Source of the DNA: Fulvivirga marina
Lineage (GTDB): Bacteria > Bacteroidota > Bacteroidia > Cytophagales > Cyclobacteriaceae
Assembly (NCBI RefSeq): GCF_016775155.1
Contig: NZ_JAEUGD010000043.1
Span: 124,001-188,000, forward strand
Direction of reading: 5' to 3'
DNA: 64,000 nt
Positions 39,979 to 45,185 of this stretch are shown here, in pieces (position 1 is the stretch's first letter; each line of letters begins with the position of its first letter). The translations under genes and the position numbers were made by a program. Under the pieces are notes generated by a model that ran no database searches, was not told where the DNA came from, and worked only from the letters and a program-made list of their open reading frames with translations.

Positions 39979-40854
39979 CTACTTTTTAAACTCATAAGCC
40001 AGTCCAAGCGAGATGATTCCTGAGCTATAGAGGTTAGCTCTTTCTATAATCAAATCCATATACCTAAAATAGCCAACGTTAAGGCTGATGGCATTGTAAA
40101 CCTCAACTGCAGATTTAATCTCCAGAGCTGTAAACTCCGTACCTTCACCCCTTACAAAATCTACTGCTGCCCCACTTCCTAAAGACTTCTGGAAAGACAA
40201 GCCTCCAATGAGCCAAACTTTTGAGCCTATGATGATGCCAACTTCGGTACCACCCATTGCCTGGTGGGTGAAATCAACGCCTTCATATTGGGTTCTGTAA
40301 TTAAATGTGGAATATACCGATGCATAGGCAGGGATAGGGTAAAATGAATGGGATGCGGCTGCCGTTAACCTAAAATTCCATTCACCATCACCAGCGGGTA
40401 AGTTAATCTGCTCAAAGCTATTTTCTTTATTTTGTGCATAGTTATTGGCCTTAGCTATTGGTATATCTGTAACCAGACTTACTGATATAGGTATCTTGCC
40501 CTGAAATATACCATACTTAAAGCCAATGGGGAGGTCGCCCAAAGCGGTAATTTTTTCAGTGGTTTGAAAGTACTGATGTTTGATCACGGGTCCATAACTA
40601 ATTATTGTAAACCGATCGGTTATCCCATATTCTCCATAAAGCCCGGTAACAGACTGTACAAATTCAGAGGTCTTTAACTGTTCGCCGGAAAGGTTGAAAT
40701 AGTTATCAGACTTGCCATGGTTTGTTTGTACTTTCAAATAGTACTCTCCTTTTTTACGGGTCCAGCCGCTTTGTGCCTGTACCGTTGAGAAACAAAGGAA
40801 TGCTGCCCCCAATGCCAGGGACATGCATTTGCCTTTTATACTTCGACTGTTCAT
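39979..40854 (-). CDS. Outer-membrane beta-barrel protein, cassette 2
   Basis: 291 residues. Signal peptide at 1-27 (CFSTVQAQ). The rest alternates aromatic and glycine residues in about 12 predicted strands, and ends in the aromatic strand LAYEFKK, typical of an outer-membrane barrel. It contains ITDRFTIISYGPVIK and LGDLPIGFKYGIF, which correspond to FTDRLTGILYFPFF and LGDTDLSIKYGLI in the paralog at 41391, so the two barrels are homologous. Resembles phenol-pathway transporter-like (MetA family) barrels. It starts 5 bases after the DM13 gene stop, so it is co-transcribed with it. Confidence 0.85.
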   Translation of the reverse strand: MNSRSIKGKCMSLALGAAFLCFSTVQAQSGWTRKKGEYYLKVQTNHGKSDNYFNLSGEQLKTSEFVQSVTGLYGEYGITDRFTIISYGPVIKHQYFQTTEKITALGDLPIGFKYGIFQGKIPISVSLVTDIPIAKANNYAQNKENSFEQINLPAGDGEWNFRLTAAASHSFYPIPAYASVYSTFNYRTQYEGVDFTHQAMGGTEVGIIIGSKVWLIGGLSFQKSLGSGAAVDFVRGEGTEFTALEIKSAVEVYNAISLNVGYFRYMDLIIERANLYSSGIISLGLAYEFKK

Positions 40855-40859
40855 GGAAG

Positions 40860-41309
40860 TTAATTCAATTCAGCGTACCCGAAAGGGATATTTGCGGAAC
40901 CGCACCATAGGATCACATGAGTGAACTTACTGGCTGCAGCTGGATCTAACATGAAGTAATTTTCACCAGTAGAGCTTACGGGGCCGATGAGCCTAAGATC
41001 AGGGTTGCCACTGCTAGGGTCAGCTTTATATTCGCTGGAAGTGGACAGGTAAACGGTTACCGTTCCGGTAGCAAGATTAGTAGAAAAGTCAGCAGCAAAA
41101 TGCAAAAACTGGATGCCGTTTTCGTCAGTACCTAATTGGGCGGTACCTGTACTTCCCGTGTCATTCTGCTCAACAAAAATACCATTTTTTGCTGTCGTAA
41201 AGCTTCCCTGAGGCATGCTGGTATCAATTAGTATTTCTTCCGTATCGTCATTGCTACAAGCAATGCATAGCGTGATGGGTATGATTAGTATTCCGAGTTT
41301 TTTTAACAT
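40860..41309 (-). CDS. DM13-domain lipoprotein, cassette 2
   Basis: 149 residues. Lipobox in ITLCIACS (Cys ~18). The remainder, ~35-149, is a single DM13 domain: GTAQLGTDENGIQFLHFAAD at its start, TVYLSTSSEY in the middle, and the conserved HVILWCGSANIPFGYAEL near the C-terminus with its Cys. DM13 domains are small beta sandwiches with a conserved Cys, related in context to DOMON and proposed to be redox-linked. It lies directly before an outer-membrane barrel (5-bp gap) and is preceded by an operator-like direct repeat at 41340-41373. Confidence 0.85.
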   Translation of the reverse strand: MLKKLGILIIPITLCIACSNDDTEEILIDTSMPQGSFTTAKNGIFVEQNDTGSTGTAQLGTDENGIQFLHFAADFSTNLATGTVTVYLSTSSEYKADPSSGNPDLRLIGPVSSTGENYFMLDPAAASKFTHVILWCGSANIPFGYAELN

Positions 41310-41339
41310 GGTTTTAAAATTTTCTGTTTAACATATTAT

Positions 41340-41373
41340 CAAAAGTCGGCTTCAAGTATCACGGAATTATCAC
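41340..41373 (-). promoter_or_regulatory. Direct-repeat operator and -7-like box before cassette 2
   Basis: On the minus strand: GTGATA, 5 bases, GTGATA, 9 bases, then GACTTTTG. The repeat period is 11 bp, as for OmpR/PhoB-family response regulators. It lies 31 bases upstream of the DM13 start and is matched by 45152-45185. Confidence 0.7.
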
Positions 41374-41390
41374 GAAAGCATAACGTAAGT

Positions 41391-42251
41391 CTAAAGCTTT
41401 AAAAAGGCGCCAACAGAGTAACTGGGATTGGCAAAAATTAGCTGCCCTGAAAAGGCAGTGCCATATGAGGCTGAAATTCCAAATGCTTTTGTGAAGTTAA
41501 AGGCGATCTCAGGAGAAAACGAAGTGTATTCCGTATTGTTTGCAAAAAGGCTTGTGCCAATAGCAATGAAGTTATCAGCCCCATTATCAAAAGACTTAAC
41601 TCCAAAAAGTCTGGCTATGAGTGTTACCTTGCCTATAGTAATGCCTGCCTCTGCTCCATAACGGAACTCGTCGGAGTAGTCATTGGTGCGGTTGTTAATA
41701 CCTGCCTTTAATGAAAAGAAAGGGTCAAATTCACCCATTTTAAATGCTTTGCTGACATCAATAGATATCATTTGGTTGAATTCACCATCTCCGGTTTGTA
41801 ACGAACCATCTCTCCCACCATTGTCATTTCCGAGGGGTATGCCGAGGGTTAAGGTGGCGCTTACAACGATTGGCTTGTTAGTGATCAATCCATATTTTAT
41901 ACTTAAATCAGTATCACCCAAAGAATTTATGGCATCGCCCTCAGCAATGAGTTGCCCAGTTGTACCCGAAACTAGCTCATTTAATGTAGCCCGGCTAAAA
42001 AAAGGAAAATAGAGTATACCTGTTAGCCGGTCAGTAAAGCCATACTCGGCATAGATACTGGTATTGTATGTTCCTCTGGTGAGGTTTGGGTCAATCATAC
42101 CCGTATTGGTGTAATGTTGGTCTGAAACTACCCACCACTGGCTGAGTTTAAGGAATATATCTCCCCTTGGCTGGGGCCAGCCCCCTCCCGCCGAAGCTTC
42201 CGTGCTGAACAATGCCAGGGCAATAGCAAAAGTAATTTTGAAGATCTTCAT
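41391..42251 (-). CDS. Outer-membrane beta-barrel protein, cassette 1
   Basis: 286 residues. Signal peptide at 1-22 (ALFSTEASAGG). Alternating beta strands with aromatic girdles follow. GFTDRLTGILYFPFFSRATL and LGDTDLSIKYGLITNKPIVVS are shared with the cassette 2 barrel, and the protein ends SYSVGAFLKL. Homologous to the barrel at 39979, so the pair arose by duplication. It probably forms an outer-membrane channel or sensor. It starts 4 bases after the DM13/Big_2 gene stop and is followed by an 81-bp gap that contains an internal promoter. Confidence 0.83.
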   Translation of the reverse strand: MKIFKITFAIALALFSTEASAGGGWPQPRGDIFLKLSQWWVVSDQHYTNTGMIDPNLTRGTYNTSIYAEYGFTDRLTGILYFPFFSRATLNELVSGTTGQLIAEGDAINSLGDTDLSIKYGLITNKPIVVSATLTLGIPLGNDNGGRDGSLQTGDGEFNQMISIDVSKAFKMGEFDPFFSLKAGINNRTNDYSDEFRYGAEAGITIGKVTLIARLFGVKSFDNGADNFIAIGTSLFANNTEYTSFSPEIAFNFTKAFGISASYGTAFSGQLIFANPSYSVGAFLKL

Positions 42252-42255
42252 TTGT

Positions 42256-42912
42256 TTAAGGGTTTAGTTTGCCGTTACCTACAGGTACTACAAAAGGTTT
42301 GCAGTAAAATAATACTATGTTATACTGGAAAAGATCTGAGGTTGTACTTATTTCGTAGGACTGCGCACCACTGAATTTTGCAACTTTTGCCACCTCCAGA
42401 GCTCCATTAATTGTGTTAATATTGTTGGAGAGGTAGACATACAATCCGGGAAGTGCAGAAGTAGTGTTAAAGTTATCGGCAAATTCCAGGATAAGACCGT
42501 TTGCCCCCTTTTTGAGTATTACATCGCCAGAAAGTGGGTAAGAACTTACCGTTGATAATGATGCTGTTCGTTGTTCTACTTCTCCACTGGTTTCGTTGCT
42601 GGCAGTTATTTTCAGAGCGGCGCTAATACCCTCCGCAAGTACATTGAGTGTAACAGTACCGGTTTTAAGAGCTGTGGCCAGGCCTGTATTGTCAATCGAA
42701 ATGATAGACTCATCGGACGAAGTCCATACAAAAACCACTTGCTCTTCCTTGCCGATATTGTTGAAGTACTTTGCCGAAAACTGATGCGTTTCCCCTACTT
42801 TTAATGATGTCAGAGGGCTTTCAATAACTATTTTCTCCTCCATTTCATCATCTATGATATCTGTTCCAATACAGCCAGTAAGGATTAATAGTATTGCAAA
42901 TATTCTTTTCAT
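42256..42912 (-). CDS. Big_2 + DM13 lipoprotein, cassette 1
   Basis: 218 residues. Lipobox near AILLILTGC (Cys ~15). A bacterial Ig-like domain of Big_2 type covers about 28-105 (LTSLKVGETHQFSAKYFNNIGKE and VTLNVLAEGISAALKI). A DM13 domain follows at about 120-218, with YVYLSNNINT and the conserved NIVLFYCKPFVVPVGNGKL near the C-terminus. The Ig domain is absent from the second DM13 protein, so the paralogs differ in spacer length. Its ATG overlaps the histidine-kinase stop by 4 bp, placing it in the regulatory operon. It probably acts at the outer membrane next to its barrel. Confidence 0.83.
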   Translation of the reverse strand: MKRIFAILLILTGCIGTDIIDDEMEEKIVIESPLTSLKVGETHQFSAKYFNNIGKEEQVVFVWTSSDESIISIDNTGLATALKTGTVTLNVLAEGISAALKITASNETSGEVEQRTASLSTVSSYPLSGDVILKKGANGLILEFADNFNTTSALPGLYVYLSNNINTINGALEVAKVAKFSGAQSYEISTTSDLFQYNIVLFYCKPFVVPVGNGKLNP

Positions 42913-44393
42913 GATTGAGCGGTTTGGTATTGTGGCAGTTGAAATGAGAAAGTAGTACCGTAATTGACTTTACTACTCAGATGAATCGTAGCATTATGAA
43001 TTTCCAGAATTTTTTTAACAATGGCTAGTCCTAATCCCGTGTTGTTATTGTCCAGGCTGATACGCTTATCTCCAATATGATAACGGTCAAATATGAACGG
43101 GATCTGATCTTTGGGTATACCGGGACCGGAGTCAGAAACCCTGATTTCAACGTATTGATCACCCTGACCTACCTCTACTTCTATTTTTCCTCTTTCTGGG
43201 GTGAATTTTAGCGCGTTATCTATCAGGTTTTGTAACACCCGTTCTATTAACCCAACATCTGCAAGTACTAATGTATTGCTCTGGTGTTTGGAGGTTACTA
43301 ACTCAATATTCTTCTGTCGGGCCAAAAGCTGGAATTTTTGACTGATATCGTTAATTAGCTCCTGTATAAAGAAAGGCTCTTTTTTAGGACTGACCTGCTT
43401 AGATTCAAGCTTCGAAAGTTCAAATAACTCATTCACCAGCTTTCTTAGCTTTTCGGTGCTTTCGAGTATGATTTTCAGGTACTTTTCACGGTCCTCTTCA
43501 GAAAGTGTTTTCCGTTTGATTATTAAGGTTTCAATGTAGCCATGTATAACCGCCAGAGGAGTGCGCAGATCATGCGAGACATTGCCAACAAGCTCCCTAC
43601 GCAGGTTTTCCATGGATTTCAAATTTTCAATGTTACCTACAATGGTATCAGCCATTTCATTAAATGCCAGGGCCAGATCATGAATACCTCCTTCTGACCT
43701 AACAGGTATCCGGGCACTCATTTCACCATTTTGAAAGCGCTTGACACTTTGTATTATGCGGTTGATGTTACGGGTGATAAGCCAGATGACCAAAAGCCCA
43801 AGGATCAGTGCTACAAACAAAGTAGTAAAGATTGCTCTGCCGCCGAGGCGTAGAATATAACTGTTCCTCATATATGCTGATACGGAGTCATATTCTTCGC
43901 TTGCCAATACTACGTAAACATATCCCAGGATTTGATCATTCTCCTGTATTGGGGCTGCTGAGAAAACCTTGTGAATGCCGGGGTTTCTTGGGTCGTCACC
44001 AACAATGTACTTTTGGTCTTCAGAGCGGATGAATTGACGAACGGGAGTCAGGTCTACAGCATCCATTTTCACTTTTTTGTATGGGGCCACATACGACAAT
44101 ATTTTGCCTTTTGGATCAAGTATATATACTTCTATACTTGGGTTGATGGCCATCATATGATGCATGATGTCATGCGTTGCGCTTTCCGAAAGCTCTCCAT
44201 TGATAAATGGCTTTACTTCAGTGATGATGTGCTCGGCAATACTTGCATTCAGTGCCTGATTTTTTTCCTGGACATACTTTTCAGCCAGCGTGGCGGTAAT
44301 AAAAATATAAGAGAAGCCGACAATTAGCAAAAGTCCGACTAGGGTGAGGGAGATTTTCCAAAAAAAACCCAGGCTGGTATTTTTAATTTTCAT
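42909..44393 (-). CDS. HAMP sensor histidine kinase
   Basis: 494 residues. TM1 at ~12-32, a periplasmic sensor domain (~33-185), TM2 at ~186-208, HAMP (~208-260), HisKA with the phospho-acceptor His in LVGNVSHDLRTPLAVI (~271), and HATPase_c: N box NLIDNALKFTPE, G1 SDSGPGIPKDQIPFIFDRY, G2 NTGLGLAIVKKIL. It phosphorylates the response regulator encoded just upstream, which overlaps its start by 11 bp. It overlaps the following DM13 lipoprotein gene by 4 bp. The signal may come from the envelope, possibly from the DM13/barrel products themselves; that is inference. Confidence 0.94.
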   Translation of the reverse strand: MKIKNTSLGFFWKISLTLVGLLLIVGFSYIFITATLAEKYVQEKNQALNASIAEHIITEVKPFINGELSESATHDIMHHMMAINPSIEVYILDPKGKILSYVAPYKKVKMDAVDLTPVRQFIRSEDQKYIVGDDPRNPGIHKVFSAAPIQENDQILGYVYVVLASEEYDSVSAYMRNSYILRLGGRAIFTTLFVALILGLLVIWLITRNINRIIQSVKRFQNGEMSARIPVRSEGGIHDLALAFNEMADTIVGNIENLKSMENLRRELVGNVSHDLRTPLAVIHGYIETLIIKRKTLSEEDREKYLKIILESTEKLRKLVNELFELSKLESKQVSPKKEPFFIQELINDISQKFQLLARQKNIELVTSKHQSNTLVLADVGLIERVLQNLIDNALKFTPERGKIEVEVGQGDQYVEIRVSDSGPGIPKDQIPFIFDRYHIGDKRISLDNNNTGLGLAIVKKILEIHNATIHLSSKVNYGTTFSFQLPQYQTAQS

Positions 44394-45108
44394 TTTTAAA
44401 CTGGTTTATTTCGGAAATCTCATCATTGAACCTGTAGCCTATTCCCCAGGTAGTAAGAATGTATTCGGGGTTGTTCAGGTTCTTTTCTACTTTGGCTCGA
44501 AGGCGATTGATGTGAGAGTTTACTGTGTGTTCATAGCCTTCAAATTCATACCCCCAAATGATACTTAGAAGGCGGTCACGTGAATAACTTTTGCCAGGGT
44601 TAGAGGCTAACAGGTAGAGCAGGTCAAATTCTTTTGGAGTAAGGTCAATTCTTTCTCCATCCCGTAGCACCTTCCTTTTGGATTGGTCTATCGTCAATGC
44701 TCCATGCTTGATTATTCGGGTGTCTTCTTTGGGCGTGTTAAGCATTTGTACCCTTCTAAAAATGGCCTTTACCCGAGCAATAAATTCCCTCACACTGAAG
44801 GGTTTGGTTAAATAATCATCTGCACCGGTCTCAAGTCCCAGTATTTTATCAATTTCTTCTGATCGTGCAGTCAGCATCAATATGGGCGTATCAATATCAT
44901 TGGCTCGGAGGTCTCGGCAGATCTCTATACCGTCTTTATCTGGTAACATTAAGTCTAATATAATGAGGTCCAGAACTTCGGTTAGAGCCATTTGGTAACC
45001 TGTATTCCCATTTTGTGCCATTTTTAAATGGCAACCTAAATCGCTTAAATGGATTTCAAGTAAATCCTTTATATGAGCATCATCCTCTATAAGCAGTACC
45101 TTTTTCAT
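44383..45108 (-). CDS. OmpR-family response regulator
   Basis: 241 residues. Receiver domain (1-118): acidic pair EDD at 8-10, phospho-acceptor Asp52 in LIILDLMLPDKDG, the Thr in LMLTARSEE, and Lys in DYLTKPFS. Winged-helix effector domain (~130-232) with DLTPKEFDLLYLLASNPG and the recognition helix YEHTVNSHINRLRAKVE. It binds DNA as a dimer at direct repeats of ~11-bp period. Such a repeat with a -7-like box lies 44 bases upstream of its own start (45152-45185), and a second one precedes the second DM13 cassette. Confidence 0.95.
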   Translation of the reverse strand: MKKVLLIEDDAHIKDLLEIHLSDLGCHLKMAQNGNTGYQMALTEVLDLIILDLMLPDKDGIEICRDLRANDIDTPILMLTARSEEIDKILGLETGADDYLTKPFSVREFIARVKAIFRRVQMLNTPKEDTRIIKHGALTIDQSKRKVLRDGERIDLTPKEFDLLYLLASNPGKSYSRDRLLSIIWGYEFEGYEHTVNSHINRLRAKVEKNLNNPEYILTTWGIGYRFNDEISEINQFKNEN

Positions 45109-45151: not shown

Positions 45152-45185
45152 TAAAGGTATATTTCAGTTATCACAAAAGTATCAC
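45152..45185 (-). promoter_or_regulatory. Direct-repeat operator and -7-like box before the response regulator
   Basis: On the minus strand: GTGATA, 5 bases, GTGATA, 9 bases, then TACCTTTA (7 of 8 to TAnnTTTG). It has the same repeat unit, repeat period (11 bp) and distance to the -7 box as the site at 41340-41373. Confidence 0.72.

Follow-up and report, generated by a model that had tools for sequence, protein, structure and literature searches.

A tandem operator of PhoB geometry before the second DM13 cassette of Fulvivirga marina: a probable target of the neighbouring OmpR-family response regulator with counterparts across Bacteroidota

In a window of 64,000 nucleotides from the Fulvivirga marina genome (contig NZ_JAEUGD010000043.1, positions 124,001 to 188,000 of the forward strand), the minus-strand site at 41357-41373 and its twin at 45169-45185 are very probably operators with the geometry of PhoB sites, through which the response regulator encoded at 44383-45108 would control the second DM13 cassette and its own operon, respectively. 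An earlier note on this DNA had proposed an OmpR/PhoB-type operator from the geometry of the site, and that proposal is now supported by the family to which the regulator belongs, the rarity of the site in the genome, its conservation upstream of orthologous regulators, its spacing to a -7-like box, its co-occurrence with the regulator and the co-variation of its sequence with the regulator's recognition helix. To our knowledge, few response-regulator sites have been defined in Bacteroidota, and we know of no established role for the bacterial proteins with DM13, spondin or RskA_C domains. Because sequence alone suffices to recognise the operator in many Bacteroidota, the genes under one regulator can be catalogued across many species at once. 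Proteins with DM13, spondin and RskA_C domains are thereby joined in one predicted regulon, accompanied in some lineages by methionine sulfoxide reductases, and a single reporter would allow the function of these domain proteins to be tested.

The features of the region, in window coordinates, are the following.

41357..41373, minus strand: operator, two tandem 11-bp units GTGATAATTCC-GTGATA(CTTGA); 36.0 bits with a matrix built without the window
41340..41347, minus strand: -7-like box GACTTTTG, 9 nt past the operator; -7 position kept in the family matrix
41379..41384, minus strand: weak third unit GTTATG, four of six letters, 11 bp upstream of the operator
45169..45185, minus strand: twin operator before the response regulator, GTGATACTTTTGTGATA; 34.9 bits
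45152..45159, minus strand: -7-like box TACCTTTA, 9 nt past the twin operator
44383..45108, minus strand: OmpR-family response regulator, the proposed binder; Response_reg and Trans_reg_C, recognition helix YEHTVNSHINRLR
42909..44393, minus strand: sensor histidine kinase with HAMP and a PAS-like periplasmic domain; model pLDDT 82.8
42256..42912, minus strand: first DM13 gene (Big_2 and DM13 by Pfam), adjoining the kinase gene
41391..42251, minus strand: putative barrel-like gene, paralogous, behind the first DM13 gene
40860..41309, minus strand: second DM13 gene, the first behind the operator; lipoprotein-like start by eye; PF10517, E 2.6e-8
39979..40854, minus strand: second cassette gene, a putative outer-membrane barrel as judged from sequence only

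Read on the minus strand, positions 41373-41357 spell GTGATAATTCCGTGATA, followed by 9 bases (41356-41348) and then by the -7-like box (41347-41340), whose first letter in the window is G instead of T. Direct reading confirmed the arrangement described in the earlier note, namely GTGATA-N5-GTGATA, 9 bases and a -7-like box within the 81-bp gap at 41310-41390, next to the start codon (41309) of the second DM13 gene; it also bore out that the same unit, 11-bp period and -7 distance recur upstream of the regulator, at 45185-45169. The 5-bp "spacer" between the GTGATA units is itself conserved in relatives (NTTTY), and the unit is therefore better written as an 11-bp repeat, YGTGATANTTT. At the offset of the weak third unit (-11), 29 of 123 target sites in relatives match at least four of the six letters, against a mean of 4.9 and a maximum of 22 for other offsets. 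Scans for sigma-70 promoters and for terminators returned nothing above shuffled sequences.

A match of this kind had been judged improbable by chance, and the counts agree. The exact form GTGATA-N5-GTGATA occurs at two sites only in the window; at up to two mismatches there are five matches versus a chance mean of 5.3, so that only the exact form is informative there. A search of the full 6.78-Mb genome, as the earlier note had suggested, returned four exact matches, both window sites among them, and one match for the reversed control. Many copies in coding sequence would have spoken against an operator; a single one of the four lies in a gene. The two exact matches outside the window were set aside, one lying in coding sequence (C25) and the other 34 bp 3' of an HTH gene (C67). 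For GTGATANTTYYGTGATA at zero or one mismatch, 41357-41373 (-) and 45169-45185 (-) are the only matches in the genome; at two mismatches there are 23 others, one of them overlapping the 41357 site, the same number as for the reversed control (23).

The regulator's orthologs are clearly set apart, with at least 53% identity, the next sequences among the matches listed reaching at most 46%. Within 150 bp upstream of 74 orthologous regulators (a count that leaves out L112, whose contig starts inside the regulator), the best match had zero, one or two mismatches in 20, 17 and 19 cases, respectively, that is, in 56 of 74 orthologs versus 16 of 1480 shuffles. Other spacings of the two units (2-4 and 6-11 bp) reached zero to two mismatches in at most six of the 74. 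A matrix was built from 53 of the 74 sites, those with at most two mismatches, leaving out the misregistered L069 and L092 as well as the window itself; its consensus is YGTGATANTTTYGTGATAMTTW-N5-TAnnTTTG. When this matrix was scanned over 75 loci, leaving out one locus at a time, 112 matches of at least 11 bits were obtained versus 2.2 expected; 59 of these precede the regulator, and a further site is found in 50 loci. In a fresh set of regulators that had not been used for the matrix, 46 of 50 have a site within 300 bp upstream, and each of the four without one there (L200, L208, L210, L212) has a site at another place in its locus, a weak one in L212 (12.4 bits). Among named genomes, a set that partly overlaps the earlier one and leaves out L222 (upstream region shorter than 150 bp), 55 of 79 loci have a site within 300 bp and 19 of the remaining 24 have one elsewhere in the locus. 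This set includes Flavobacteriaceae, Chitinophagaceae, Saprospiraceae and Melioribacteraceae, along with Melioribacter/Ignavibacteriales MAGs. In most loci from Chitinophagaceae, the site points towards a divergently oriented spondin-type gene and its second unit reads GTTATA or GTTACA. Seven of the 125 family loci are without any site of at least 13 bits. The operator system is widespread in Bacteroidota, and the DM13 gene is one among several alternative outputs.

These data bear directly on the possibility that the two window sites lack regulatory meaning, having paired by chance or having arisen when duplication of the DM13-barrel cassette copied a promoter. The DM13-barrel pairs are indeed paralogous (the barrel-like proteins encoded at 39979-40854 and 41391-42251 are 28% identical), which makes a shared promoter ancestry conceivable. 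However, the twin precedes the regulator and not directly the other DM13 gene, and the site is kept in most of the 125 family loci despite unrelated downstream genes; the leave-one-out scan, the fresh set and the presence and absence of the operator across genomes (see below) likewise disfavour coincidence or copying, to which we attach next to no probability.

The units are head-to-tail direct repeats with a period of about 11 bp, other spacings not being enriched, and the operator keeps a preferred distance to the predicted promoter core, lying across its -35/-33 position. In 36 of 54 sites, 9 nt separate the second GTGATA from the best -7 box; the other 18 have scattered boxes or no match of four in six. 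The box corresponds to matrix columns 27-34, and the operator covers the -33 position. TAnnTTTG is given as the sigma-A -7 consensus of Flavobacterium in PMC9723704. We propose that two regulator molecules would bind head to tail on the two 11-bp units (YGTGATANTTT). Between the downstream GTGATA, which covers the -33 position, and the -7 box lie 9 nt, and from this placement the phosphorylated, bound regulator probably recruits RNA polymerase in a PhoB-like manner. The twin operator would provide feedback on the regulator-kinase operon, which probably also takes in the first DM13 gene and the barrel-like gene behind it; the copy at 41357 would put the second DM13 cassette under the regulator's signal.

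The regulator might instead bind and repress, the operator overlapping the promoter and blocking polymerase until the signal releases it. Such a role would agree with an operator that covers the -33 position, and RprY, an OmpR-type regulator from another Bacteroidota species, is reported as a repressor (PMC3646045). On the other hand, the arrangement, with its paired 11-bp units and a -7 box most often 9 nt away, is like that of PhoB activation sites (PMC3348028, PMC4415409), and by eye there is no separate -33 element to block. We consider repression unlikely, a minor possibility that deserves mention, and activation by the bound regulator the probable mode.

The presence of the operator follows that of the regulator. 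Of 125 family genomes that have the regulator, 44 contain the exact operator (GTGATANTTNYGTGATA), as do five of 265 that lack it (Fisher 2e-19), for totals of 63 sites in regulator-positive and five in regulator-negative genomes. The reversed control gave six matches, none of them in regulator-positive genomes, and three of the five matches in regulator-negative genomes lie inside long reading frames. One of the other two comes from a genome of the window's genus (G262) in which no regulator ortholog was detected: this operator of 34.4 bits (L310:1501-1517, G262:C14) has a small lipoprotein-like gene behind it; here the regulator may be missing from the assembly or may have been lost.

The sequence of the operator co-varies with that of the regulator in one case. 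The third residue of the recognition helix YEHTVN is His in 203 of 205 loci, a tally in which some genomes are counted twice. The two exceptions, L114 and L129 (G056 and G117), belong to one genus and have Asn or Gly in its place; the target operators of both read GTAATA in both units. An A at position 3 of both half-sites occurs in two of 264 sites, exactly these two helix-variant loci; among sites with unchanged helices, 23 of the 264 have T at position 3 of one half-site and seven have A there in just the second one. The 300 bp upstream of the L114 and L129 regulator genes contain neither a clear GTGATA nor a clear GTAATA operator. The genus appears to be a natural specificity variant, with a GTAATA operator matching the changed helix; as the change is confined to that one genus, the co-variation counts as a single event.

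TGTGA is a Crp half-site, and some other regulator, for instance a protein of the Crp/Fnr type, might bind the operator. A gene of the Crp type occupies the third position of many DM13 cassettes (L083; 31 third-position matches), and another stands behind one unlinked exact site (L325). Yet the conserved units are direct repeats with an 11-bp period whereas a Crp site is an inverted repeat, the presence of the operator tracks the OmpR-type regulator, with whose helix its sequence co-varies, and 59 of the 112 matrix matches lie before that regulator. Binding by a different regulator is, in our estimation, highly improbable, and the OmpR-family protein very probably binds the site. As a separate observation, the DM13-barrel cassettes (L083, L098, L176 and others) often have a Crp/Fnr-type gene in third place, followed by a second DM13 gene, an order that suggests a regulatory relay.

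The regulator encoded at 44383-45108 comprises a receiver (PF00072, E 3.2e-25) and a winged-helix Trans_reg_C domain (PF00486, E 5.9e-27) by Pfam, and its closest counterpart among the named genomes is that of Fulvivirga kasyanovii (91% identical). Behind it follow, in order, the genes for the kinase, the Big_2-DM13 protein, a barrel-like protein, the second DM13 protein and the second barrel-like protein. The sensor of the kinase gave PAS/PDC-type structural matches, the best at E 5.3e-3 and none at E 0.001 or better; as all of these are weak, no ligand is claimed. Two of its residues are strongly conserved, His78 being kept in 118 of 123 and Met81 in all 123 family kinases (72 of 79 and 76 of 79, respectively, in the named-genome set). 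The protein encoded at 40860-41309 is a member of the DM13 family, scoring 34.9 bits against PF10517 (gathering score 25). The protein encoded at 39979-40854 has no Pfam match, and no library model matched either of the barrel-like proteins, which are so named from their sequences. A search of solved structures returned one match for DM13, at E 0.07, and none for the barrel-like protein.

The genes behind the operator in relatives are diverse. Locus genes were obtained with a simple reading-frame caller, an operon being defined as co-directional neighbours less than 130 bp apart, and proteins of identical sequence entered the tallies of target genes and of methionine sulfoxide reductases (Msr) only once. 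The 98 first genes behind sites of at least 13 bits, which include one misfiled regulator (L084), were assigned with phmmer to DM13 (36), spondin (26), RskA_C (9), DUF7482 (7), redoxin (3), Met-rich (2; a class assigned by eye for proteins without a Pfam match), MsrB (1), MsrA+B (1) and Crp-like (1), with 12 unassigned. A lipobox-like start, by a loose pattern, is present in 85 of the 98. Eleven MsrA/MsrB genes are found among 1901 locus genes, and eight of them lie in operator-led operons, which hold 232 genes (Fisher 5e-6, a value that treats genes sharing an operon as independent). The other three stand 130-150 bp, or one gene further, behind operator-led lipoprotein genes (L130, L262). The Msr genes come from seven loci, L130, L241, L246, L249 and three of Niabella (L262, L270, L273), in several of which the domains were checked with Pfam. 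Among 40 target proteins scanned with Pfam, no metal efflux family was found. In L134-L138 (genera g71 and g26), an operator of 12-20 bits stands on a redoxin-like gene (AhpC/TSA by Pfam in L134), with the regulator and kinase behind it.

Eighteen exact sites unlinked to the regulator were examined in regulator-positive genomes; they lie outside reading frames of at least 150 codons, and three of them score below 11 bits with the full matrix (L328, L332, L340). The genes behind such sites include a DUF7482 gene, of a family that is a linked target in other loci, the Crp-like gene of L325 and a polyphosphate kinase gene. The last (L338:3172-5268, G185:C15) starts 154 bp behind an exact operator, on a contig different from that of the regulator. 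In L329, L332, L333 and L335 (genus g57), operator-like sites stand 188-203 bp before similar genes, which in L329 encodes a RimK-like ATP-grasp protein by Pfam.

The most likely signal is oxidant or metal stress in the envelope, a guess that we make because reductases, Met-rich proteins, redoxins and a sensor with conserved Met and His would fit it. The stress-pointing target genes come from relatives, none from the Fulvivirga locus; Msr genes occur in seven loci only, three of them from Niabella, and are absent from the Fulvivirga locus, which makes the stress reading weak for the DM13 version of the system. More broadly, and tentatively, since we would sooner doubt than assert it, the operator might mark a Bacteroidota-wide system for envelope oxidants or metals, sensing through a conserved Met-His-x-Met-Met cluster. 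Interchangeable DM13, spondin, RskA_C, DUF7482, redoxin, Met-rich-peptide and MsrA/B genes would then be functionally equivalent outputs, as the swapping of unrelated secreted proteins behind one operator would imply.

Systems of this kind are already known; in the covered part of the open-licence PMC literature, no description of this particular regulon was found. HprSR (YedVW)-MsrPQ and SigF-MrpX control the repair of methionine sulfoxide, and Met-rich proteins, in the envelope. The present system would act like these two should the stress reading hold, with the differences that its reductases are of the MsrA/MsrB type and occur in some lineages only, and that DM13, spondin, RskA_C or DUF7482 proteins make up most of its output. 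Identity with HprR was rejected, the NCBIfam HprR equivalog scoring 167.8 versus a cut-off of 353. With CusRS/CopRS the system shares an OmpR-type regulator and a sensor with conserved Met and His, CusS being itself a weak structural match (E 6.1e-3); unlike theirs, the targets scanned here (40 proteins, Pfam) contained no metal efflux family. Assignment to the heavy-metal regulators (cztR/silR/copR) was likewise rejected (NCBIfam subfamily score 185 versus 279.2; also 156.1 versus 292.55). RprXY of Bacteroides and Porphyromonas, compared by description, is similar in being OmpR-type, from Bacteroidota and linked to oxidative stress (PMC3646045). The direct targets reported there for RprY are chaperone promoters, and the main text of that paper does not contain the terms "motif", "consensus" or "direct repeat".

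The likeness to PhoB lies in the architecture; identity with PhoB itself was rejected, the NCBIfam PhoB equivalog scoring 207.9 versus a cut-off of 296.2 and the Bacteroidetes PhoB model 176.6 versus 270. The PhoB operon of Escherichia coli is autoregulated. The PHO box consists of two 11-nt direct repeat units, each with seven well and four less conserved bases (PMC4415409), and its sites overlap the -35 site (PMC3348028). The Fulvivirga system matches PhoB in its OmpR-family regulator, its two 11-nt direct repeats, their overlap with the -35 region and the site before its own operon. It differs in the repeat unit, which is YGTGATANTTT rather than of the CTGTCAT type, in the Bacteroidota -7 box, and in its targets, which are mostly secreted lipoprotein-like genes instead of phosphate genes.
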